DNA of 45,656 nucleotides, from positions 1 to 45,656 of the forward strand of contig JABDCC010000013.1 in assembly GCA_013288335.1 (NCBI GenBank), in the 5' to 3' direction. Positions 3,257-44,593 of the stretch are shown in pieces. The notes beneath the pieces are model-generated. The model searched no databases, was not told the origin of the DNA, and saw only the letters and a program-made list of their open reading frames with translations. The position numbers and the translations under genes were made by a program. How positions within the stretch are numbered: the stretch's first letter is position 1; each line of letters starts with the position of its first letter. Origin of the DNA: Alphaproteobacteria bacterium (lineage in GTDB: Bacteria > Pseudomonadota > Alphaproteobacteria > Rickettsiales > JABCZZ01).

Positions 3257-3886
3257 ATGGCAAAAACACTTTCAGAACTGGCAGAGTACATCAAACAAAG
3301 CCAAGCGGTGGAAACCCAGATCAAGCTTGACGAATTAATGCTACTTGCGCCTTCGGATAATATAGTTGGGTTGCTTACTTTTCTACGTGATGACCCGGAA
3401 TGTAAATTCACGCAGCTTATGGATATTTGTGGAGTGGATTTTCCAGAACGTGCCAAACGTTTTGATGTCGTGTATAATCTTTTATCGCCGAAAATGAATA
3501 AACGCATTCGTGTAAAAGTGCAGACTAATGAAGCTACACCTGTACCATCAGTGGTGTATGTGTTTTCGTCAGCAGGCTGGTTTGAGCGCGAAACCTGGGA
3601 TATGTACGGCGTATATTTTTCCGGCAATCCTGACTTACGCAGAATTCTTACGGATTATGGTTTTGACGGGCATCCCTTACGCAAAGATTTTCCGCTTACC
3701 GGTTTTGTAGAGTTACGTTATGACGAAGAACAAAAAGCCGTTGTGTATTCTCCGGTCAAGCTTCCACAAGCTTACCGCACGTTTGATTTCTTAAGTCCGT
3801 GGGAAGGTGCAAAATATGCCTTGGCTCCAACTGTGGCGCCCACTGCATCGACTGAAAAACCGGCAGAAAAAGCGAAGGCAAACTAA
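3257..3886 (+). CDS. nuoC: NADH-quinone oxidoreductase subunit C
   Basis: A 209-residue 30-kDa-type subunit of the complex I hydrophilic arm. Signature segments include [12 protein letters not shown], the [27 protein letters not shown] block and [12 protein letters not shown]. The C-terminal tail is rich in Ala, Pro and Lys, as is common in alphaproteobacteria. It is a free-standing NuoC, not the NuoCD fusion of enterics. Its TAA stop overlaps the ATG of the following acetyltransferase by one base (TAATG), suggesting translational coupling with a gene that is not a complex I subunit. Confidence 0.96.
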
Positions 3887-4389
3887 TGACAAACGAATGG
3901 AGCATATCGCCTGCGACCGATGCTGACTGGCCGGGTATCTGGGCAATATTTCGTGATGTGATAAGTCGCGGTGACACTTATACCTATGCGCCGGATATGA
4001 CCGAACAGCAGGCAAAGAATATCTGGGTACTCAATGGCTGTCGTGGCTTTGTGGTAAAACATGGAGACAATATTGTCGGTACATTTACACTGCGCACGAA
4101 TAAACCAGGTTTTGGTGATCACGTAGCCAATGCAGGGTACATGGTGCATAAGGATTATCGCGGGCGCGGCATTGCACAAGCCATGTGCCAATATTCGCTG
4201 AAAGCTGCAAAGGATCTTGGCTATAATGCGATGCAGTTTAATTTTGTGGTCGCAAGCAATAAACCTGCCGTGCAGTTATGGCAGAAAATGGGTTTTAAAA
4301 TTGTTGGCACCGTGCCCAAAGCATTCAGGCACGCCACACAAGGATTAACCGATGTATATATAATGTACCGCTCTTTGGATGATATTTAA
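3886..4389 (+). CDS. GNAT family N-acetyltransferase
   Basis: A 167-residue single-domain GNAT protein. The acetyl-CoA pyrophosphate-binding motif A is visible as [19 protein letters not shown] (RGRGIA, about residues 86-104), followed by motif B features [20 protein letters not shown]. The substrate cannot be read from sequence. It overlaps nuoC by one base and ends one base before nuoD, so it is embedded in the operon. Whether it acetylates a complex I component or is simply carried along is unknown. Confidence 0.9.
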
Positions 4390-4390
4390 T

Positions 4391-5566
4391 ATGGCAACTG
4401 AAACAAAAAACATGACTATCAATTTCGGCCCTCAACATCCGGCAGCGCACGGCGTTTTGCGCCTCGTGCTGGAAATGGATGGGGAGGTGGTAGAACGCGC
4501 TGATCCCCATATTGGCTTGCTTCACCGCGGTACCGAAAAACTTATCGAACATAAAACCTATCTGCAGGCACTACCTTATTTTGATCGCTTGGATTATGTG
4601 TCGCCAATGGCGCAAGAGCATGGTTTTGCGCTTGCAGTTGAAAAATTACTTGGTTGTGAAATTCCCCCGCGCGCAAAATATCTCCGCGTATTATTCTGCG
4701 AAATAACCCGTATATTAAATCACATTTTAAACGTCACCACACAAGCCTTAGACGTAGGTGCTATGACACCGCTTTTATGGCTCTTTGAAGAACGCGAAAA
4801 ACTCATCACCTTTTATGAGCGTGCCTCCGGTGCGCGTTTTCACTCAGCCTATATTCGCCCGGGTGGTGTGCATCAGGATATTCCCGCTGGCATGGAAGAC
4901 GATATATTAAAATGGGCAAACGGCTTTGGTAAATATCTGGATGATGTAGACAACCTGCTTACCGAAAACCGCATCTGGAAACAGCGCACGGTAGATATTG
5001 GCGTAGTCACCGAACAGCAAGCTTTGGACTGGGGTTTTTCAGGGCCGATGCTACGTGGTTCGGGTGTGGCGTGGGATATACGCAAAGCACAGCCATACGA
5101 AATATATGATCAGTTGGACTTTGATATTCCAGTTGGTAAAAATGGCGATTGCTGGGATCGGTATCTGGTGCGTATGGAAGAAATGCGTCAGTCACTAAAA
5201 ATTATCAGGCAATGCATTGAAAAAATGCCCAAGGGCGAGGTGGTAACAAACGATCCAAAAATTGCCCCGCCAAAACGCGCGCTCATGAAACAATCCATGG
5301 AAGCGATGATCAATCATTTTAAACTCTATACTGAAGGGTATCGCGTGCCTGCAGGTGAGACTTATACTGCGGTGGAAACTCCGAAAGGCGAATTTGGTGT
5401 GTATCTGGTGGCAGACGGCAGCAACCAGCCTTATCGCTGCAAGGTTCGTGCACCAGGCTTTGCGCATTTACAGGCGCTCGATTTTATGTGCAAAGGACAT
5501 ATGCTTGCTGACGTAGTGACCATTATTGGTACGCAGGATATTGTATTTGGTGAAATTGATCGATGA
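4391..5566 (+). CDS. nuoD: NADH-quinone oxidoreductase subunit D (49-kDa, quinone site)
   Basis: A 391-residue subunit that forms the quinone-binding cavity with NuoB. It contains the typical [14 protein letters not shown] start, [14 protein letters not shown], the [12 protein letters not shown] segment, [21 protein letters not shown] and the terminal [15 protein letters not shown]. The ATG at 4391 is chosen over the in-frame ATG at 4379, since the latter overlaps the acetyltransferase and family members begin just before [14 protein letters not shown]. The stop overlaps the next start (ATGA). Confidence 0.97.
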
Positions 5567-6102
5567 AATCATGGGCAAAGATAATTTTTGTTATTTGCGC
5601 CGTAATAATTTTTTATGTAGCGGCGTCACCCGGAATTGCGGCGGCGCAGAACAAGGGGGGTACGAAACCAAGTAATGGTGATTATAGTTTATGCAGGGAC
5701 GAAAATTTAATCGGAAACTACTACAAAATGGTGCTGTTTACCGAGACTCCCGAGCGTGGTGAGAGTGCGTGGATTCATAATATACCATACCATTATCTCG
5801 CATTCTTTCCTGATCGTTATTATTCCTATCTTGCTTCCGACAAGGAGATAACAACGCCTGCTAAACTGGAAGAACTTTTGCAATGGCCAAGAAAGAGCAG
5901 TCACTTAATGCTGTATACACTGGGCAGTAAGGGTGATTTGAATCTTTATAATGGCAAAGTCATTAACTACCGATACCGTTGTTTTGTGATTAAAGCAGAT
6001 AGTGGTGTGTATAAAAAAGGCGACCTGATACTCACGGGGTATAATAGGGAAGCCAAAAGTGAATTATATAAAATATATCGTCTATGGTATAAGAGAGGTT
6101 AG
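5563..6102 (+). CDS. secreted protein of unknown function inside the nuo operon
   Basis: A 179-residue protein with a clear N-terminal signal: MKSW, a hydrophobic helix (residues 6-22) and an ASPGIAAAQ stretch that offers a signal-peptidase I site near residue 29. The mature part contains Cys39 and a second Cys near residue 142, which could form a periplasmic disulfide, and is rich in Tyr. No family is recognised. Its ATG overlaps the nuoD stop (ATGA), and nuoE follows after 5 bp, so it is probably co-translated with complex I subunits. The function is unknown; an envelope role is inferred only from the signal peptide. Confidence 0.78.
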
Positions 6103-6107
6103 AAAAT

Positions 6108-6719
6108 ATGAGTACAAGTACATCCGTAGAATTCGAGCAGCCAACGAGTTTTTCCTTTACGGCAGAGAATGCTGCAGAGGCAAAAAAGATTATTACAAAA
6201 TACCCCGCTGGCCGCCAGGCTTCAGCGGTTATGCCGCTATTAGCTCTTGCACAGAAGCAACATAATAATTGGCTCCCAAAAGTAGCGATGGATGTGGTGG
6301 CAGACATGCTTGATATGGCGCCAATGCGTGTATATGAAGTGGCCACGTTTTATACCATGTATAATCTGGCGCCCGTGGGTAAACATCTGGTTGAGCTTTG
6401 TACGACCACACCGTGCTGGCTTCGTGGTTCTGCAGATGTAGTAAAAGCATGTGAAAAGCATTTAGGTGTTGCTGTGGGTGAAACTACTGCTGACAAACAA
6501 TTTACTTTAAAAGAAGCAGAATGTTTGGGCGCGTGTGTGAATGCGCCTATGGGTTCCATTAATGGTATTTTCTATGAAGATTTAACACCGGACAATGTAG
6601 TTAAACTACTTGGTGAATTAAAATCGGGCAAAACTCCGAAACCCGGATCACAGGCAGGACGTGTAAGCTCCGAGCCACAAGGCGGCGCAACTACCCTAAA
6701 AGGCAAAAAATCGGCATGA
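6108..6719 (+). CDS. nuoE: NADH-quinone oxidoreductase subunit E (24-kDa, 2Fe-2S)
   Basis: A 203-residue thioredoxin-fold subunit of the NADH dehydrogenase module, binding cluster N1a. Ligand cysteines are in CTTTPCWLRG and AECLGACVNAPMG. The helical N-terminus with PAGRQASAVMPLL and the VYEVATFYTMYN segment are typical. A 30-residue basic, glycine-rich tail follows the domain, as in other alphaproteobacteria. A strong AGAGAGG ribosome-binding site precedes the ATG. The stop overlaps the next gene's start (ATGA). Confidence 0.96.
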   Translation: MSTSTSVEFEQPTSFSFTAENAAEAKKIITKYPAGRQASAVMPLLALAQKQHNNWLPKVAMDVVADMLDMAPMRVYEVATFYTMYNLAPVGKHLVELCTTTPCWLRGSADVVKACEKHLGVAVGETTADKQFTLKEAECLGACVNAPMGSINGIFYEDLTPDNVVKLLGELKSGKTPKPGSQAGRVSSEPQGGATTLKGKKSA

Positions 6720-7441
6720 AATACGTAATGGTATTATGGTGTGCGTTATTGTTTTTTGCATCTACTGCAAGCGCCGCAGTGACTGTGAATGAACAGGTGT
6801 TGCAGAAAGGATTGTTCTTTGATTCCGCGTGCAAGGGTGAAAATCAATGTATGTGCGAAGCGGATATCAAATATCCTGTGATAAATGGCATGGCAGATGC
6901 GCACGCTCAGGAAGTGCTCAATAAAAGTTTTAAAGATGCGGCTACGCAAGTGCAGTGCAAAGGTGAGGCGTCTAAAGAAGCTCCAAAGGACACTGATTCC
7001 TCGATAAAATATAGTTACGAAGTCACTTTTCAATCTCCGCAAATTATGGGTTTAGAGTTTACTAACTGGGCATATGAAGGTGGTGCGCACGGTAACGGAA
7101 TCATTGAGGGAATGATTTTTGATTTGGAAAAAAACAAGTATCTTACGGCTGATGATATATTTGGTGCCAATATGGCTGCGGTCAATCAAGCAATATACGA
7201 TGCGCTTGCACCAAATTCCGAAGGTATTTTTCATGATGAAATAGAAAGCCGCAAAGGTGCGTTTATCAAAGATGGCAAATGTAACGGGTGTACATTGGTG
7301 TTAAAACCGGAAGGAATAAATGTAATATTTCAGCTATATGAAATTGCCTCTTTTGCGGATGGCAATAAATCGGTATCTATACCTGATAAACTCATTGCTT
7401 ACCCTGCTATCCTTAAGGCGTTATCTCAAACTAAATCATAG
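6716..7441 (+). CDS. secreted DUF3298/DUF4163-like protein
   Basis: A 241-residue protein with a signal peptide (MKYVMVLWCALLFFASTASA, cleavage near residue 20). The central part has the PxInG strand, a long insertion, and the diagnostic WAYEGGAHGNG segment followed by FDLEKNKYLTADDIF. These are hallmarks of the DUF4163/DUF3298 pair found in RsiV-like and YxxB-type periplasmic proteins. It has several cysteines, including Cys-x-Cys in QCMCEAD and CNGC. It sits between nuoE (4-bp overlap) and nuoF (6-bp gap). The molecular role is not known; family assignment rests on the GGAH motif and domain order. Confidence 0.8.
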   Translation: MKYVMVLWCALLFFASTASAAVTVNEQVLQKGLFFDSACKGENQCMCEADIKYPVINGMADAHAQEVLNKSFKDAATQVQCKGEASKEAPKDTDSSIKYSYEVTFQSPQIMGLEFTNWAYEGGAHGNGIIEGMIFDLEKNKYLTADDIFGANMAAVNQAIYDALAPNSEGIFHDEIESRKGAFIKDGKCNGCTLVLKPEGINVIFQLYEIASFADGNKSVSIPDKLIAYPAILKALSQTKS

Positions 7442-7447
7442 GTTCAT

Positions 7448-8728
7448 ATGTTAAAAGATGAAGATAGAATATTTACCAATCTCTACGGTTTTGAAGATTG
7501 GAAACTTGCCGGTGCAAAAAAGCGCGGCGACTGGTCTACGACTAAGGAAATTCTTGCCAAAGGACCCGAGGCCATCATTGAAGAAGTAAAAGCTTCAGGC
7601 TTACGTGGACGCGGTGGTGCAGGTTTTTCTACTGGTATGAAATGGTCGTTTATGCCCAAGAAATCTGACGGTAGGCCGTCTTATCTTGTGGTGAATGCCG
7701 ATGAAGGTGAACCGGGCACCTGCAAAGATCGTGACATGATGCGTCACGATCCGCATAAGCTGATTGAAGGCTGTCTCATTGGTGGCTTTGCTATTAGAGC
7801 GGTTGCTGCATATATTTATATTCGTGGTGAATTTTCTCAGGAAGCCGACAATCTCGAATACGCGATCAATGAAGCCTACGAAGCAGGGTTGCTTGGTAAA
7901 AACGCCTGCGGTTCCGGTTATGATTTTGATGTGTTTTTACATCGCGGTGCTGGTGCTTATATCTGTGGTGAAGAAACTGCGCTTATTGAATCACTGGAAG
8001 GTAAAAAAGGCCAGCCACGTTTGAAGCCGCCATTTCCTGCAGCGATGGGTGTGTGGGGTTGTCCGACTACGGTCAATAATGTCGAAAGTATTGCTGTGGT
8101 TCCCGAAATTTTGCGTCGTGGACCTTCATGGTTTGCAGGAATTGGCCGCGCCAATAACACAGGCACGAAAGTGTTCTGCATTTCAGGTCACGTAAATAAC
8201 CCATGCAATGTGGAAGAAGCGATGGGAATTCCGATGAAGGAACTCATTGAAAAACACGCAGGCGGTGTGCGCGGCGGTTGGGATAATTTACTTGCCGTAA
8301 TCCCCGGTGGCTCTTCCGTTCCACTCATTCCAAAATCTATCTGTGATACCGTACTCATGGATTTTGATGCGCTTCGCGATGTAAAATCAGGACTTGGTAC
8401 AGCGGCGGTGATTGTGATGGATAAATCCACCGATTTGGTAAAAGCCATCGCACGGCTTTCCAAATTCTATATGCATGAATCTTGCGGCCAATGCACACCA
8501 TGCCGCGAAGGCACTGGTTGGATGTGGCGCGTGATGGAACGCATGGTGACCGGTAATGCGGACTTGGAAGAAATAGATCACTTGCTCGATGTTAGCACTC
8601 GTATTGAAGGCCATACTATCTGTGCGCTTGGTGATGCTGCTGCTTGGCCGATTCAGGGGCTATTCCGCCATTTCCGCCCGGAAGTGGAAAGACGCATTTC
8701 GGAATTTCATAGCAAGAAAGCTGCTTAA
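7448..8728 (+). CDS. nuoF: NADH-quinone oxidoreductase subunit F (51-kDa, NADH/FMN site)
   Basis: A 426-residue subunit carrying the NADH site, FMN and cluster N3. The glycine-rich NADH loop [16 protein letters not shown] (about residues 50-65), the FMN region [34 protein letters not shown], and the 4Fe-4S ligands in [12 protein letters not shown] plus a distal Cys in [13 protein letters not shown] are all visible. It is full length and intact. An unknown gene separates it from nuoG. Confidence 0.97.
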
Positions 8729-8813
8729 TACAATGTTTTTGAATAAAATTTTAGGCATTTTATGGCACAAGACTTGAATAGATAGGTTTAGACATAACCA
8801 ATGAGAGAGTTTT

Positions 8814-9332
8814 ATGACTAAACATCCATTACTGCCCAAAGATTATACGGATTCTATTACCCATGCGAACATCATTTATGCGCTCAATATTTATGCAAAT
8901 GAGGGAAGCGAAGGAGTTGCTAATCCCCGTCTGAAGTGGGATTTACATAGTGCATGGGAAGATGCCCAGGAATTACTCGCAAAAAGCCACTGGCGTTATA
9001 ATACCGGCGAGGATTTGGATAAAAACTATGCTGATTACGTGCTTGCGGCATATACGGAGGATGAGATAGAAGATTTGAACAAGATTATCGCAGGGATTGT
9101 CGGCCATCAGATACTGGAACCGGATACTCAAATTGCCTTTCGACGCATTGAGCATAAAAAAGGTGGTGAAATGAGTTTAATTATTTCCAACTCTGTGGCA
9201 GAAGTACTGAATAAAAGATTTCCTTCTCTAACCAGCAAAGGAGAAGGGCAGGCAGGAAGCAATACATTAAAGGCAATTAAAGATACGTTATGCAAAATAT
9301 TTCATTGGAAAAAGAATAAAAACACTGGATAA
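8814..9332 (+). CDS. conserved-looking hypothetical protein between nuoF and nuoG
   Basis: A 172-residue, mainly helical, soluble protein with no signal peptide or membrane segment. It has a tryptophan-containing central part (HSAWEDAQELLAKSHW), an acidic stretch AAYTEDEIEDLNK and a basic C-terminus ending HWKKNKN. I do not recognise a family. A GAGAG ribosome-binding site precedes the ATG, and the gene starts 85 bp after nuoF and ends 8 bp before nuoG, which supports it being a real operon member. The function is unknown. Confidence 0.65.
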   Translation: MTKHPLLPKDYTDSITHANIIYALNIYANEGSEGVANPRLKWDLHSAWEDAQELLAKSHWRYNTGEDLDKNYADYVLAAYTEDEIEDLNKIIAGIVGHQILEPDTQIAFRRIEHKKGGEMSLIISNSVAEVLNKRFPSLTSKGEGQAGSNTLKAIKDTLCKIFHWKKNKNTG

Positions 9333-12423: not shown

Positions 12424-13029
12424 GTGGAAGCAATTTCAGAGTGGCTTGTTAACTGTATCGAGGGTGTCGGGTATATCGGTATTTTTGTTGCGATGTTTTT
12501 GGGCAATGTGCTGGTGCCGATTCCGGTTGAGCTTATCATGATTCCTGCGGGCTATCTTGTACAGCAGGGCAATATGAATCTGTTTGTTCTGCTGAGTTTT
12601 GCGATTGCCGGTGATGTGTGCGGTTCACTTTTTTCTTACTATATTGCCTTTCATTTCGGGCGCTTTGTTATATTGAAATATGCTAAATACCTATTTTTTA
12701 ATCAGGAAAGAATGGAAAAGCTGGAGCATTTCTTTGCCAGTCATGGTGAAATTTCAATTATTACTGGGCGCTTAACTCCTGGTTTGCGCCATTTTATGGC
12801 ATTTCCCGCAGGCCTTTCTCACATGAATGCCAAAAGATTTGCCGTATATACAGGCGTTGGCGGTGGGATATGGATGGGGGTCCTGATATTTGTTGGCCAT
12901 ATCATTGGCGGAAATAAGGCGCTCATCAGGCATTACCTGCCTTATTTATCGGGTGCCGCGTTTATGTTGGTATTTTTGATGATTTTATTCTATATAATGC
13001 ATCATAATAAGAAAAAGAAATTGTCTTGA
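12424..13029 (+). CDS. DedA/SNARE-associated family membrane protein
   Basis: A 201-residue polytopic protein starting at GTG. DedA features include the early re-entrant loop with VPIPVELIMIPAGYL, the GDVCGSLFSYYIAFHFGR segment and the ITGRLTPGLRHFMAFPAGLSHM block with conserved Arg, Gly and Pro. DedA proteins are inner-membrane lipid (undecaprenyl-phosphate or phospholipid) transporters or scramblases; the substrate here is not determinable. It lies between nuoH and nuoI (42 bp and 12 bp gaps), another non-complex-I insertion in the operon. Confidence 0.9.
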   Translation: MEAISEWLVNCIEGVGYIGIFVAMFLGNVLVPIPVELIMIPAGYLVQQGNMNLFVLLSFAIAGDVCGSLFSYYIAFHFGRFVILKYAKYLFFNQERMEKLEHFFASHGEISIITGRLTPGLRHFMAFPAGLSHMNAKRFAVYTGVGGGIWMGVLIFVGHIIGGNKALIRHYLPYLSGAAFMLVFLMILFYIMHHNKKKKLS

Positions 13030-35453: not shown

Positions 35454-37067
35454 TCAATTTATTGAAGCGCTTATTTCACTATTAAGCGCATTTTTGGGGA
35501 ATTTAATGCCAAGCGCTTTTTCCAACCTTGGAATTTCACCAAAATATTCAATACGGCGGGTGAAGCGTGGCATGATGCCAGACCATTTGAATTTGCCAAG
35601 CAATTTTCCATCCGGTGTTTCACTTTCCGATTTATAAGTGAACAGATCATGCATAGTAATCATGTCGCCTTCCATACCAACCACTTCTGAGATGAAGGTG
35701 ATACGGCGGTGTCCGTCGCGCATACGGCTGATCTGGATTATGAGATGGAGTGCGGAGGCGATCTGATAACGCAGTGATTTAATTGGAATCTGCAAATCCG
35801 CCATGCTGATCATGTTTTCTAAGCGCGATAATGCATCACGCGGGTGGTTGGAGTGAATGGTGGTAAGAGAGCCTTCGTGACCACTGTTCATCGCCTGTAA
35901 CATGTCAAACGCTTCAGGACCGCGCACCTCACCGACAATAATACGATCCGGGCGCATACGCAGGGAATTCTTCACCAGATCACGCATGGAGACTTCATCT
36001 TCCATTTTCATTCCCGGGTGATACGGTCTTGTTTCCAAGCGTACAACATGGGGTTGCTGCAATTGCAATTCGGCAGCATCTTCGATGGTGACAATGCGTT
36101 CGTCTTTATCGATATAGTGGGAAATGGCATTCAGCAGTGTGGTCTTACCCGAACCTGTACCGCCCGAAATAATAACGTTGAGGCGGCATCTTCCGACTAC
36201 TTTCAGGAATTCTGAAATCTGTTCACTTATATTATTATTCTCCACCATTTTATCGAGGGTAATACCCTTCTTCGAGAATTTGCGAATGGAGATATTCGTC
36301 CCGTCAACGGCCAGAGGCGGGGCGATAATGTTCACGCGGCTTCCGTCAGCAAGGCGGGCATCCACCAGCGGACGATTGATATCAATTTTGCGGCCCAGTG
36401 CTTTTACAATGCTTTCGGCAACGTCAAAAACTTCATTATCGTCATTAAAAGTGACATCGGTTTTTTCCAGAAGCCCTGCGCGCTCAATAAAGACCTTGTT
36501 ATGACCATTTATTAACACATCGTTTATAGTTTCATCGTTAATGAGCGGAAGAATAGGACCAAGCTCGGACATATGCTTTGCCATTTCTTTATTGCGTTCC
36601 CTGAATTTTTGTCCGGATGATTGAGCAGTTTCTTCTGGAGTTGAAGAAGAATGATTTAATTTGCGTTCAATAGTATCACAGCGCTTGTCCAGCAGATTGG
36701 TGATACGTTCCAAAGACTCTGCAACTTTTGCCAGGCTGTCAAGGGGGGCTGTATGGTTAGCATTACCAGATTGCCTGTCTGTAAAAATTTTTCGGACAGT
36801 TTTTTGGAGTCCAGCAGGAGTTTGAGCCACTAGTCGCTCTATATGCTCTTCTGAAAGAGGCTCGAGCTTTATCGCAGATTTTGCAATGGCGGTTTCGGTA
36901 TGATGAGCATGCTTGGCAAGGCTGGGCTCACCTATTACTTCTCCTTCGACCGCAATATAGTTTACAGATTTACCGGTAATTTCCACTTCACCAGATACTA
37001 TGATGAACAGTGAATCACATGGCTCGCCTTCGTGGTATATAACATCACCTTTAGTAAATGAACGCAT
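35454..37067 (-). CDS. CpaF/TadA-type secretion ATPase with N-terminal cyclic-nucleotide-binding domain
   Basis: A 537-residue fusion. Residues 1-95 form a cNMP-binding/Crp-like beta-roll ([45 protein letters not shown]). Residues 100-165 are a polar linker, and 165-500 are a CpaF-type ATPase: [24 protein letters not shown] (Walker A, 301-310), RIIVGEVRG (Walker B), [11 protein letters not shown] and RLENMISM. CpaF powers Flp/Tad pilus assembly or type II/IV-like secretion. The sensory domain suggests gating of the ATPase by a cyclic nucleotide or a related signal. Phosphate-cassette residues of classical cAMP binders are not clearly present, so the ligand is uncertain. Confidence 0.92.
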
Positions 37068-38884: not shown

Positions 38885-39814
38885 ATGTTAAAGCAAAATA
38901 TAAAATTTACTTATGAACAAAAAGCTGAGTCGGGCTTCACGCTTATCGAACTTTCCATTGTATTGGTTATTATAGGTCTGATTGTTGGTGGAGTGCTTGT
39001 AGGGCAGGATTTAATTGCAGCGGCGGCCATGCGTGCTCAAATCTCGCAGATAGAAAAATACAATACCGCAGTACATACCTTTCAGGGTAAATATGGCTAT
39101 TTACCGGGTGATATGCCTGATCCGCAAGCTAGTTCATTTGGATTTATAGCCAGAGGAACGGGTCTGGGACAGGGAGATGGTAATGGGCTACTGGCAGGTG
39201 GCAATGCTGATTGCTGCGCTGAAGTGTACGGAGAAATAGCCGTATTCTGGGTAGATTTGAGTCAAGCCGGGTATATCGATGGAAGTTTTACCACGGCCAC
39301 TTCTAGTACACATGGTGGTTCTATGATAACAGGAACTGCAATAGCAAACTACATGCCTGCCGCCAAAATAGGTCAGGGGAATTATGTGTATGTATGGGCA
39401 GGGGGTTCGGGTTCAGTTGATCTTCCCGGTATGACATTTTCCGGGATCAATTATTTTGGACTCTCAGGTATAGCGGATCTTCAAGTTGGAATTATAGGTT
39501 TTCCTGATGCCACTAAGAACTTGACGCAAGCGCAAGCCTATAACATCGACCAAAAAATAGATGATGGCTACCCGACGACTGGAAGTGTGTTAGCTGTTTA
39601 TCCCAGTAGTTCTTCAATATATTGGGCGGCAGGTGGCAATATTGATTCTACAGGTACCGCACCCGGTCAGGTATTTGGCAGTGGTTATCAAATATCTGCA
39701 GTGAAAACGACCTGTTTTGACAATAATAACGTATCAGGAGCTCAGATGCGCTATACGATGTCTATCAGCAATGGCAGCAACATGAGTTGTGTTCTTGCAT
39801 TTAAGTTTCAGTAA
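38885..39814 (+). CDS. type IV prepilin-like protein
   Basis: A 309-residue protein with a prepilin signal: a 17-residue basic leader, cleavage after Gly17 in ESGFTLIELSIV, Phe18 as the methylated residue, and the conserved Glu at mature position 5. A hydrophobic alpha-helix follows to about residue 50 (GLIVGGVLVGQDLIAAAAM), then YNTAVHTFQGKYGYLPGDMP, the usual pseudopilin neck text. The C-terminal domain is rich in Gly, Ser and Thr with paired cysteines (DCCAE; CFDNNN ... SCVLAF). It may be a minor pilin or pseudopilin. The gene has a candidate CtrA box upstream. Confidence 0.88.
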   Translation: MLKQNIKFTYEQKAESGFTLIELSIVLVIIGLIVGGVLVGQDLIAAAAMRAQISQIEKYNTAVHTFQGKYGYLPGDMPDPQASSFGFIARGTGLGQGDGNGLLAGGNADCCAEVYGEIAVFWVDLSQAGYIDGSFTTATSSTHGGSMITGTAIANYMPAAKIGQGNYVYVWAGGSGSVDLPGMTFSGINYFGLSGIADLQVGIIGFPDATKNLTQAQAYNIDQKIDDGYPTTGSVLAVYPSSSSIYWAAGGNIDSTGTAPGQVFGSGYQISAVKTTCFDNNNVSGAQMRYTMSISNGSNMSCVLAFKFQ

Positions 39815-39921: not shown

Positions 39922-40030
39922 TTTAAAAGAGCCATAAGCTTATTAGAACAAGAAGGCTTGATTATCCAGTGTATTATTCGGTATTCTGGTATATAATGAA
40001 CGAATTATATAATTCATTATTTGCATAAAT

Positions 40031-41695
40031 ATGCGTCGTGGCTTTACCCTTCTAGAACTTTCCATAGTACTTGCAATTATTGCTGTAGTAATAGGTGGTG
40101 GCATCGTCATGTTCACGGCAAGCATCCAGAAAAGTCAATCCGATGCAACGGTTGCTAAAATGGATGCTATAGAGGGGGCATTGCTTAATTATACTAATAT
40201 TTACGGACGTCTACCCTGTCCGGGCGATTTAACTCAAACCGCCACTAGTAGCCCTAACTATTATGGCCTTGAATCAGATCCCACAGCGAATCCGGGTTCA
40301 TGCAGGGGAGGAAATCCTGCTCCTAATCTCGTATCGGGTACAGTAAATGCCGTTGAAGGTTCCGTGCCGGTTCGCGCATTGCAGCTTCCCGACAGTTATA
40401 TGTATGATGGTTGGGGAAGGCATTTCGGCTATGCAGTTGATGCTAGTATGACAATTACAGGGTCGTTTCCACCGGCTTTGGGGCCAGCTTGTTATCCCTC
40501 TCTCGGGATTACCGTAAACGATGCTACCGGAGCAGCCCGCACTACGACTGCCGTATATGCAATTATTAGTCATGGTGCAAATGGACATGGCGGTTATACG
40601 CTCAATGGAAGTATGTATAATGCTTCAAACGGCGACGCCAGCAAGGACGAAAATTGTCATTGTAATAGCAACGGCTTTCCGAGCGGTACTTCCAACGGAC
40701 CTAACCAAACTGTTTTTGACGGAACCTATATACAAAAAGCACCTGCACTGACACCTGGTACGCCAAAGAATGTGTTTGATGATATTGTCACCTTTAAGGA
40801 AGCATGGCAGATGCGTTCTCCATCAACAAGTTTTGTATCCCTTCCGGCCTGCATGTGGGCTACGGATGCAACTACGAATATTTTTAATTACGGTAACGCC
40901 CCCGCATTACTGAATACTACTGGAACATGGTCTGGAGAGGGCATGAGTTTTACCAGTACCAATGGTATTGCCACAGATAATAACGGAAATGTTTATATAA
41001 CGGATCCTGCAGATTCTGAAATCTGGAAATTTAATCCCACTATCAATAGATCAATATTTGTCTCTGGTTTAAGCGCACCTGTGGGAGTAGCCGTCGATAA
41101 TAGCGGTAATGTCTGGATCGCCAATACCGGTGCAAGCAGCATATTGGAATATACCAATGCTGCGGTGAGCGTGAATATATCTGCAATTTCGGCAGCAGCG
41201 GCGCTTTCTTTTCCGAAGGGGTTATATATCGATAATAGCGGTAACATACTAGTGGCGGATACCGGTCATCATTGTATAAAATATTATAACGGAAGCATAT
41301 GGAAAACTTTCGGAACCTCGGGTGTTTCTGGATCTGCTGCTGGTCTGTTTTATTCTCCTGCTGCGGTTTACGAAGATGCAGCAGGAAATATATGGGTGGC
41401 GGATACCGCCAATAACAGAGTTCAGAAATGCAGTTTGACAAATGATTGCACACAAACTGCTAATTGGAAAATCTATGGCACTTCTTCTGTGAGTACAGCG
41501 GCGGGGCAATTCAACGCGCCTGCTGCAATAACGGGTGATGTATTTGGCAATATATGGGTAGCGGATACGGGAAATAACCGTATTCAGGTTTACAGAAACA
41601 GTGCTTGGAGTATTTTTTCTCTTTATTATGCTGCCAACTCTCCTCCCTATGCCAGAGCTTTCCAAGGACCAAATGGTTTTGCTGTCGGTAGATAA
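40031..41695 (+). CDS. prepilin-like protein fused to a C-terminal NHL beta-propeller
   Basis: A 554-residue protein. The leader is only four residues (MRRG, then FTLLELSIVLAII), a short prepilin signal with Glu at mature position 5 and a hydrophobic helix to about residue 32. The YTNIYGRLPCPGDL neck resembles the first prepilin. A middle domain (about 60-290) has several cysteines (CRGGN, CYPSL, CHCNSN). Residues 305-554 hold five NHL repeats with the GNxWxADTxNNRIQ pattern at about 316, 356, 401, 450 and 506. The final PNGFAVGR could close a sixth blade. A beta-propeller carried on a pilin-like stem suggests an adhesin or a tip protein binding a ligand outside the cell; this is inference. 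Confidence 0.88.
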   Translation: MRRGFTLLELSIVLAIIAVVIGGGIVMFTASIQKSQSDATVAKMDAIEGALLNYTNIYGRLPCPGDLTQTATSSPNYYGLESDPTANPGSCRGGNPAPNLVSGTVNAVEGSVPVRALQLPDSYMYDGWGRHFGYAVDASMTITGSFPPALGPACYPSLGITVNDATGAARTTTAVYAIISHGANGHGGYTLNGSMYNASNGDASKDENCHCNSNGFPSGTSNGPNQTVFDGTYIQKAPALTPGTPKNVFDDIVTFKEAWQMRSPSTSFVSLPACMWATDATTNIFNYGNAPALLNTTGTWSGEGMSFTSTNGIATDNNGNVYITDPADSEIWKFNPTINRSIFVSGLSAPVGVAVDNSGNVWIANTGASSILEYTNAAVSVNISAISAAAALSFPKGLYIDNSGNILVADTGHHCIKYYNGSIWKTFGTSGVSGSAAGLFYSPAAVYEDAAGNIWVADTANNRVQKCSLTNDCTQTANWKIYGTSSVSTAAGQFNAPAAITGDVFGNIWVADTGNNRIQVYRNSAWSIFSLYYAANSPPYARAFQGPNGFAVGR

Positions 41696-43618: not shown

Positions 43619-43647
43619 TTCACATTTGCACAGATTAAAGGTATAAT
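43619..43647 (+). promoter_or_regulatory. sigma-70-type promoter of ssrA
   Basis: TTCACA (43619-43624), a 17-bp spacer and a perfect TATAAT (43642-43647) lie immediately upstream of the tmRNA acceptor piece. This predicts a transcription start near 43654. Confidence 0.75.
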
Positions 43648-43653
43648 AGCTTT

Positions 43654-44068
43654 GCTGGAAACAGCTATGGCGATAAATGGTTACTTAGAATAGGCGATTC
43701 GGACCCGGGGGCAGAACCCGGCGCCTCCACCACCCTGCGTCTTCGACTTCGGGTGGCAGGCCATGCAAATGGGCTGGCAGACGAAGTCGATATAAGACGT
43801 TGGAGTGTCCTCCGAAGCTTTAGCGAAGGAGGGCTACTTCCAAGTTATGGGGGCGAATTAGGCTCGACGGGCGCAATAAAGGGGTGATTTTTGCTCGGCA
43901 TGATTCCGCCGTAATGGGTCAAAACGATAAATGCAAATGATAATTCTGCATTTGTTGCTGCTAACGACAACACTGTCGTAGAAGTTCGCGCTGCTGCCTA
44001 ATTGGGCGAGCGCGTGCTCTAGCACGTAACGCGGCCCGAGGGGTGCCGGGCAACAGAAACCCCTCACT
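43654..44068 (+). ncRNA. ssrA: circularly permuted two-piece tmRNA
   Basis: This RNA rescues stalled ribosomes. In the permuted order the acceptor piece comes first, about 43654-43732: the T-arm CCGGG GGCAGAA CCCGG, then CGCCTCC (43722-43728), A and an encoded CCA ending at 43732. A spacer (43733-43848) is removed in maturation. The coding piece starts with GGGGGCG at 43849-43855, which pairs with CGCCTCC (one G-U) to form the acceptor stem; GAATTAGGCTCGACGGG follows. The tag frame is 43957/43960-44001 and encodes (A)AANDNTVVEVRAAA then TAA. Downstream hairpins, including GAGGGGT/ACCCCTC ending at 44065, close the coding piece. The outer ends are approximate. sspB follows 36 bp later. Confidence 0.93.
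43733..43848 (+). other. intervening segment of permuted tmRNA with hairpins and a palindromic element
   Basis: This segment lies between the acceptor and coding pieces and is expected to be excised. CGACTTCG near 43747 pairs with CGAAGTCG near 43785, forming a long stem. At 43808-43832 a separate palindrome-like element, CCTCCGAAGC TTTA GCGAAGGAGG, has CCTCC/GGAGG and GC/GC stems around a GAA/GAA internal loop. It resembles small mobile intergenic palindromes seen in several bacterial genomes. No second copy was seen in this window. Confidence 0.6.
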
Positions 44069-44104
44069 GAATTTTGGTTAACGCTAATTATAAAAGAGAA
44101 TTTA

Positions 44105-44593
44105 ATGCCTGAACAACTTGATTATGCCTTATTCATAGATAATGCCATGCGTGGTGCTGTGCGCGAGATGTTGCGTCAGGTGCAGCGTTCAGGCTTGCCG
44201 GGGCAGAATCATTTCTTTATCTCTTACCGCACTGATTATCCGGGCGTTGCTATGTCGGATTCGCTGCGCGCTAAATACCCCAATGAAATCACCATAGTGT
44301 TGCAGCATCAGTTCTGGGATTTGGTGGTTGACGATGATCAGTTCCGTGTTTCACTGAGTTTCAGCAATATTCCTGAAAAACTAGTGGTGCCATTTGCCGC
44401 GCTCACCGGCTTTGCTGACCCCAGCACCAAGTTTGGTTTGCAATTTCACAGTATTGAAGTGAAGGGCGCGAACGAATCGCAGATTGTAGAAGAAGTGCCG
44501 GTTATTACTACTCCTTTTGCACAAAACAGCGAAGATGAAATTCCTCAAGAAAGCTCAAAAGTTATTGCGCTTGATGCTTTCCGCAAGAAGTAA
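44105..44593 (+). CDS. sspB: ClpXP adaptor SspB (alphaproteobacterial type)
   Basis: A 162-residue SspB-alpha, which tethers ssrA-tagged proteins to ClpXP. The dimerisation helix and tag-binding domain are shown by LDYALFIDNAMRGAVREMLRQV, GLPGQNHFFISYRTDYPGVAMSD, EITIVLQHQFWDLVVDDDQFRVSLSF and VPFAALTGFADPSTKFGLQF. A disordered acidic linker follows, and the C-terminal ClpX-binding tail reads KVIALDAFRKK. Its position just after ssrA matches its function: alphaproteobacterial SspB reads the AANDN part of the tag, which the neighbouring tmRNA encodes. Confidence 0.96.
   Translation: MPEQLDYALFIDNAMRGAVREMLRQVQRSGLPGQNHFFISYRTDYPGVAMSDSLRAKYPNEITIVLQHQFWDLVVDDDQFRVSLSFSNIPEKLVVPFAALTGFADPSTKFGLQFHSIEVKGANESQIVEEVPVITTPFAQNSEDEIPQESSKVIALDAFRKK

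Follow-up and report, generated by a model that had tools for sequence, protein, structure and literature searches.

A class III prepilin ending in an NHL propeller, probably an exchangeable recognition head for type IV pili in a likely basal Rickettsiales lineage

Modular pilins have been defined as proteins that join a pilin module to a domain not specific to type IV pilus biology, with the carrier pilin presenting the grafted effector domain, probably at the pilus tip (Raynaud 2021, PMC8179133). In Streptococcus sanguinis, they include PilB (vWA) and PilC (lectin) (PMC8179133, PMC9934059). In Saccharibacteria, the RCC1-propeller minor pilin PilX2 is needed for the function of the host-binding pilus T4P-2 (PMC12206443). 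For Rickettsiales, type IV pili were reconstructed in the ancestor with a suggested role in host attachment, and basal members are reported to have both type IV and Tad pili (PMC9352585, PMC10847448).

Here we analyzed a window of 45,656 nucleotides, the whole stretch of DNA under study, from an alphaproteobacterial assembly of 1.5 Mb that is 67% complete. The lineage is probably basal Rickettsiales, a placement based on genome-size patterns and on virB4, whose duplication in the rvh type IV secretion system is a mark of that order: two or more virB4 genes were found in two members of its family (G002 and G003) and in five of five near-complete members of the order, and one in the incomplete assembly studied here. 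The window encodes a 554-aa protein that is a class III prepilin, followed by a pilin body of ~265 residues and then by a closed six-bladed NHL propeller. Its features are as follows:

40031..41695, + strand: modular type IV prepilin with C-terminal NHL propeller, 554 aa (ORF; Pfam N_methyl and NHL; full-length homologues in G002 and G003).
40031..40042, + strand: leader MRRG, predicted prepilin peptidase cleavage after Gly4 (TIGR02532, N_methyl, mature-pilin alignment).
40043..40204, + strand: pilin alpha-1 helix, residues 5-58, with conserved E9, the Glu at mature position 5 (46 homologues; AlphaFold helix 7-58).
40205..40846, + strand: pilin globular body, residues 59-272, with near-invariant Cys63 and Cys91 (stem HMM, conserved columns).
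40844..40912, + strand: N-terminal half of blade 6, residues 272-294 (aligns with the second half of NHL repeats in G003 and G002).
40949..41599, + strand: five complete NHL repeats, at about residues 307-338, 347-376, 388-419, 440-469, and 494-523 (Pfam NHL, AlphaFold).
41660..41692, + strand: C-terminal closing half-repeat FQGPNGFAVGR, residues 544-554 (sequence; VIA-align reaching residue 554 on six-bladed NHL structures, Z up to 28.6).

The N_methyl region and stem (residues 1-272) and the NHL region (residues about 274-554) thus lie in one polypeptide, as in the S. sanguinis PilB and PilC proteins, where a pilin module likewise carries a C-terminal non-pilin recognition domain. The PilC lectin has a further counterpart here, since LamG/ConA-type lectins sit on relatives of the same stem. 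The differences are an NHL six-bladed propeller instead of a vWA domain or lectin, a 265-residue stem with conserved Cys, and a diderm alphaproteobacterial background. The nearest functional precedent is Saccharibacteria PilX2, a minor pilin that also bears a propeller and is proposed as a host-recognition adhesin; some relatives of the present stem carry RCC1 domains too. However, the propeller here is NHL with six blades and that of PilX2 is RCC1 with seven, and the prepilin signal is canonical here, whereas PilX2 has no predicted PilD signal peptide (PMC12206443). PilC/PilY1 tip adhesins are alike in having a propeller-bearing component proposed at the pilus tip, but PilY1 is no pilin and belongs to a separate propeller family (PF05567). 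Our literature search brought up no publication that names a pilin with NHL repeats; NHL may be among the 264 modular architectures of PMC8179133, which lay beyond its reach.

At the N-terminus, class III prepilins have a short basic leader, Gly at position -1, Phe or Met at +1, Glu5, and a hydrophobic helix. The ORF (start MRRGFTLLELSIVL) begins MRRGFTLLELSIVLAIIAVVI and presents MRRG/FTLLE, with Gly at -1, Phe at +1, Glu5, and the hydrophobic helix; the aligned proteins of two relatives start MKRGFTLIEL. A sequence-only reading of the window had proposed the four-residue leader and the FTLLE prepilin helix, and two models agree above their curated cut-offs: Pfam N_methyl over residues 2-23 (25.7 bits, cut-off 21.2) and the NCBIfam prepilin domain TIGR02532 (28.7 bits, cut-off 16.3). 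An in-frame stop lies a few codons 5′ of the ORF start, so the four-residue leader is no artefact of start choice. A search directly upstream of 40031 gave no sigma-70-like site, and the promoter-like sites of the region do not clearly exceed shuffles. A perfect 8-base inverted repeat (TATATAAT/ATTATATA) is located at 39990-40011, close 5′ of the start, and is possibly a regulatory site or merely AT-rich sequence.

By its profile matches, the stem (residues 1-272) is a pilin family in its own right, occurring alone or fused to other modules. An HMM built from it matched 88 sampled proteins over nearly the whole length. Among 46 homologues, E9 is nearly invariant, PCP, C63, and Gly/Asn columns are invariant, and C91 is conserved in at least 90%. 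The middle part had been described as a cysteine-rich domain; the domain is real, being a homologous pilin body, but the wording overstates the five Cys in residues 24-272 (63, 91, 154, 209, and 211). The profile of the 46 stem proteins matches the mature solved pilins PilA, TCP pilin, PilE1, and GspG, in an alignment that covers profile positions 1-71 only. In it, profile position 4-5 aligns with residue 1-2 of the mature pilins, and the placement of position 4 on mature residue 1 supports cleavage after Gly4. In the AlphaFold model, alpha-1 is a helix at residues 7-58 and the globular head has pLDDT <50, with three usable stem sequences; because the body is modelled at such low confidence, the lack of any match for it in the VIA-align listing is uninformative. 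In other alphaproteobacteria with small genomes, beyond the order, the open frames that contain the stem mostly measure 230-300 aa and have no large module.

At the C-terminus, Pfam NHL matches five stretches (E 1.2e-29) and is the best Pfam match, with PF05567 absent from the Pfam matches of the protein. In PDB sequence searches, the matches were Pizza6 designs and the NHL domains of TRIM proteins and PknD (best E 1.7e-27). The five NHL repeats and the closing half-repeat that had been read from the sequence were all found, and the latter, a first half of a repeat, has a partner: the half-repeat CMWATDATTNIFNYG, at residues about 274-288, resembles the second half of an NHL repeat, and in this half-blade (residues 272-294) strands are modelled at 283-287 and 290-294. 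Joining two terminal half-repeats into one blade is the usual way of closing a propeller, so the two halves here should together form blade 6 of a closed, six-bladed propeller. The sequence-only reading had suggested looking for the same fusion in other genomes. The whole architecture, with both halves, recurs in full-length homologues of G002 and G003, which excludes chance, and their propellers have the same order of half-repeat, five repeats, half-repeat.

Structure prediction, another check proposed with that reading, also gave a six-bladed NHL propeller, with predicted pLDDT about 90 over most blades (most of residues 311-470), <50 in the loops 475-490 and 533-542, and Z about 28 to NHL structures. 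The closest match in VIA-align was a circularly permuted six-bladed Pizza6 (Z 28.6, 241 residues aligned, rmsd 2.8), and the other best matches were the six-bladed NHL structures of TRIM71, Thin, TRIM2, and PknD. The full-length model was built with a 17-row alignment. Modelled alone from a single sequence, the propeller was poor (pLDDT 46), and a good one was obtained once NHL proteins of viral contigs and two relatives of the stem had been included; with other NHL proteins in the alignment, this model does not test the sequence assignment independently. The five NHL stretches and the PDB sequence matches are by themselves decisive for an NHL propeller. The Pizza6 designs, TRIM2/3/71, Thin, and the extracellular domain of PknD share the six-bladed NHL fold (Z about 26-29), but none of these propellers sits on a pilin.

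The likeness to the extracellular sensor domain of PknD is also what speaks for a membrane-anchored sensor, in which the FTLLE helix would merely anchor a periplasmic NHL domain without polymerisation. We consider this quite improbable: Gly at -1 and Glu5 are conserved, a full pilin body follows the helix, pilD is co-encoded in relatives, and the 554-aa protein has no cytoplasmic signalling domain. Instead, we favor, with fairly good confidence, a modular (bimodular) type IV minor pilin that displays the propeller as an exchangeable recognition head.

For such a minor pilin, the genome should supply an assembly machine, and the search for PilB, PilC, and PilD genes was successful in part. By homology, the genome has a type IVa machine of the PilB/PilC/PilT kind: a PilB/GspE-type ATPase with MshEN, a PilC/GspF-type platform protein, and two tandem PilT/PilU ATPases. 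This is the machinery expected from the earlier remark that FTLxE pilins normally work with PilB. An A24 prepilin peptidase was not found in this 67%-complete assembly and is present in the relatives, where, on G002:C3 and G003:C30, a complete pilD (A24_N_bact and Peptidase_A24) has its end overlapped by the gene for the NHL pilin. The PilB-like and PilC-like proteins score slightly better on the GspE/GspF than on the PilB/PilC models, all below the equivalog cut-offs. Together with the prepilin signal that T2SS pseudopilins share and the match of the stem to GspG as well as to pilins, this would fit a pseudopilin of a T2SS-like filament, whose periplasmic propeller recognises cargo or caps a short pseudopilus. 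We regard this as unlikely, because both PilT/PilU-family retraction ATPases score above the curated cut-off and a T2SS has no such ATPases, and because multiple lectin-type and propeller modules on one stem fit outward recognition better than a single cargo path.

At the gene neighborhood level, the sequence-only reading had joined the propeller pilin, the second prepilin, and the CpaF-type ATPase into one surface system. The second prepilin (38885-39814, + strand, ~300 aa) is a member of a different family, of which the assembly has about a dozen scattered copies, and a tRNA-Arg gene separates it from the pilin at 40031. The CpaF/TadA-type ATPase, which has an N-terminal cyclic-nucleotide-binding domain, is encoded at 35454-37067 on the opposite (-) strand, and its neighbours include no TadB/TadC gene; another CpaF-type ATPase is found together with two T2SSF genes at a distinct Tad-like locus on contig C31. 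The joint system was therefore not upheld. What speaks for a Tad-like arrangement is proximity in related genomes: in G002, a stretch of about 30 kb contains homologues of CpaF, the pilin, and SspB, and in G001 one of about 10 kb contains CpaF and a LamG pilin. This suggests an orthologous region rather than an operon, and the spacing of 3-16 kb in the relatives, the opposite strands, and the membership of the 38885 prepilin in another multi-copy family leave the Tad-like reading very improbable. As a class, a Tad/Flp pilin system was rejected, given an FTLxE-type prepilin and a CpaF that lacks TadB/C alongside.

Some other observations concern the same window. The CpaF of 35454-37067 is conserved at ~60% in G001 and G002, where it adjoins an FtsH-like gene (named by eye). 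Loci of the 38885 type (L003-L005, L007-L010, and L012) often end in CALSFxFQ, and a second prepilin family of roughly a dozen copies is a large prepilin stock for a 1.5 Mb assembly. The nuo (complex I) cluster at 3886-9332 and 12424-13029 is interrupted by unrelated genes, for a GNAT-like acetyltransferase, several small secreted-type proteins, and a DedA-like membrane protein (names by eye). At 43640-44593, a permuted tmRNA of the two-piece type is directly followed by an SspB-like gene (named by eye); SspB is an adaptor for tmRNA-tagged proteins.

At the evolutionary level, the C-terminal part varies widely on the common stem. It is absent or short in 45 of the 88 stem proteins, and in the others Pfam assigned RCC1 (11), NHL (8), LamG (6, some as LamG_3 with DUF2341), WD40-like (5), PA14 (1), and S74 (1), with 11 unassigned. 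NHL was found on the stem only in the family studied here (one protein in the window genome, six in G002, one in G003), and full-profile matches to the NHL pilin in 344 genomes of the order were again confined to this family (three candidates scored per genome, E <1e-50). In G001, a member of the same genus, each of the four scanned stems bears LamG. Within the genus, the module on closely related stems is NHL in one species and LamG in another. The stem tree shows NHL and LamG proteins intermixed within two starred sets, and its starred branches require a minimum of three changes for NHL and four for LamG; this mixing inside starred clades forces several exchanges.

Pairwise identities of the two parts are also uncoupled. 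Between the G001 proteins on C8 and C9, the stem is 80% identical and the module 45%, and in the G002 tandem pair the values are 63% and 29%; conversely, G001 C3 and its paralogues share 44-47% in the stem and 49-51% in the module. Modules thus diverge more quickly than the stem that carries them, and they appear to be passed from one stem to another. Within a genome, the module type looks uniform (LamG on four of four scanned stems in G001, NHL on six of six in its congener G002; L043-L049, L050-L054). Arg is the last residue in 12 of 12 modular pilins of the family, NHL or LamG alike (among them the window pilin, last codon 41692, and L014, L015, L019, L043, L046, L047, L050, L051, L053, and L054), against a background of about 10% for the last residue in these loci (binomial 1.6e-12, relatedness ignored); a common C-terminal signal or docking strand is possible.

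At the functional level, we propose that prepilin peptidase would cleave MRRG/F, and that helix alpha-1 and the ~265-residue body would place the subunit in a pilus assembled by the PilB/PilC machine and retracted by PilT/PilU. The most likely position is at or near the tip, because a 280-residue propeller would be too bulky for the shaft. The propeller would face outward and bind a ligand (protein or glycan) on a surface, a neighbouring cell, or a host, and retraction after binding would pull the cell in. The stem would serve as a general carrier and the propeller as the exchangeable recognition head. LamG/ConA is a known carbohydrate-binding fold, and its replacement of the propeller in relatives points to recognition. 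NHL propellers elsewhere also act as sensors or enzymes, which counts against an adhesin. The idea that a beta-propeller on a pilin stem would be suited as a tip adhesin or sensor is strengthened by the predicted fold, the pilD genes beside it in two relatives, and the LamG/ConA exchange. The pilin is probably an exchangeable sticky tip for surface or host recognition by pili; we infer its tip location, its role in adhesion, and any replacement of PilY1.

Regarding that replacement, PilY1 (PF05567) was not found in the four family members, one with a 100% complete genome, and is present in 8 of 88 genomes of the order. Long modular stems occur in one of the eight genomes with PilY1 and in 18 of 42 genomes in the comparison, by open-frame counts, a difference that is not significant (Fisher p = 0.13). 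A broader proposal, which we hold only tentatively and think may well be wrong, is a dedicated tip-cassette: one stem as universal holder for unrelated propellers and lectins that are exchanged on it, in place of PilY1, and that set the host or surface range of free-living or ectosymbiotic basal Rickettsiales.

The protein differs from its precedents in the NHL type of propeller, in a common stem on which a lectin and several unrelated propellers are found, and in the lineage. On this reading, it extends the known concept of modular and RCC1-propeller pilins to the NHL type and to a lineage that is probably basal within the Rickettsiales. A conserved stem with a species-variable recognition module offers concrete candidate genes for the host attachment suggested for Rickettsiales pili, and it adds a natural example of cut-and-paste evolution at the pilus tip, with NHL, RCC1, and WD40-like propellers and LamG lectins on one carrier.
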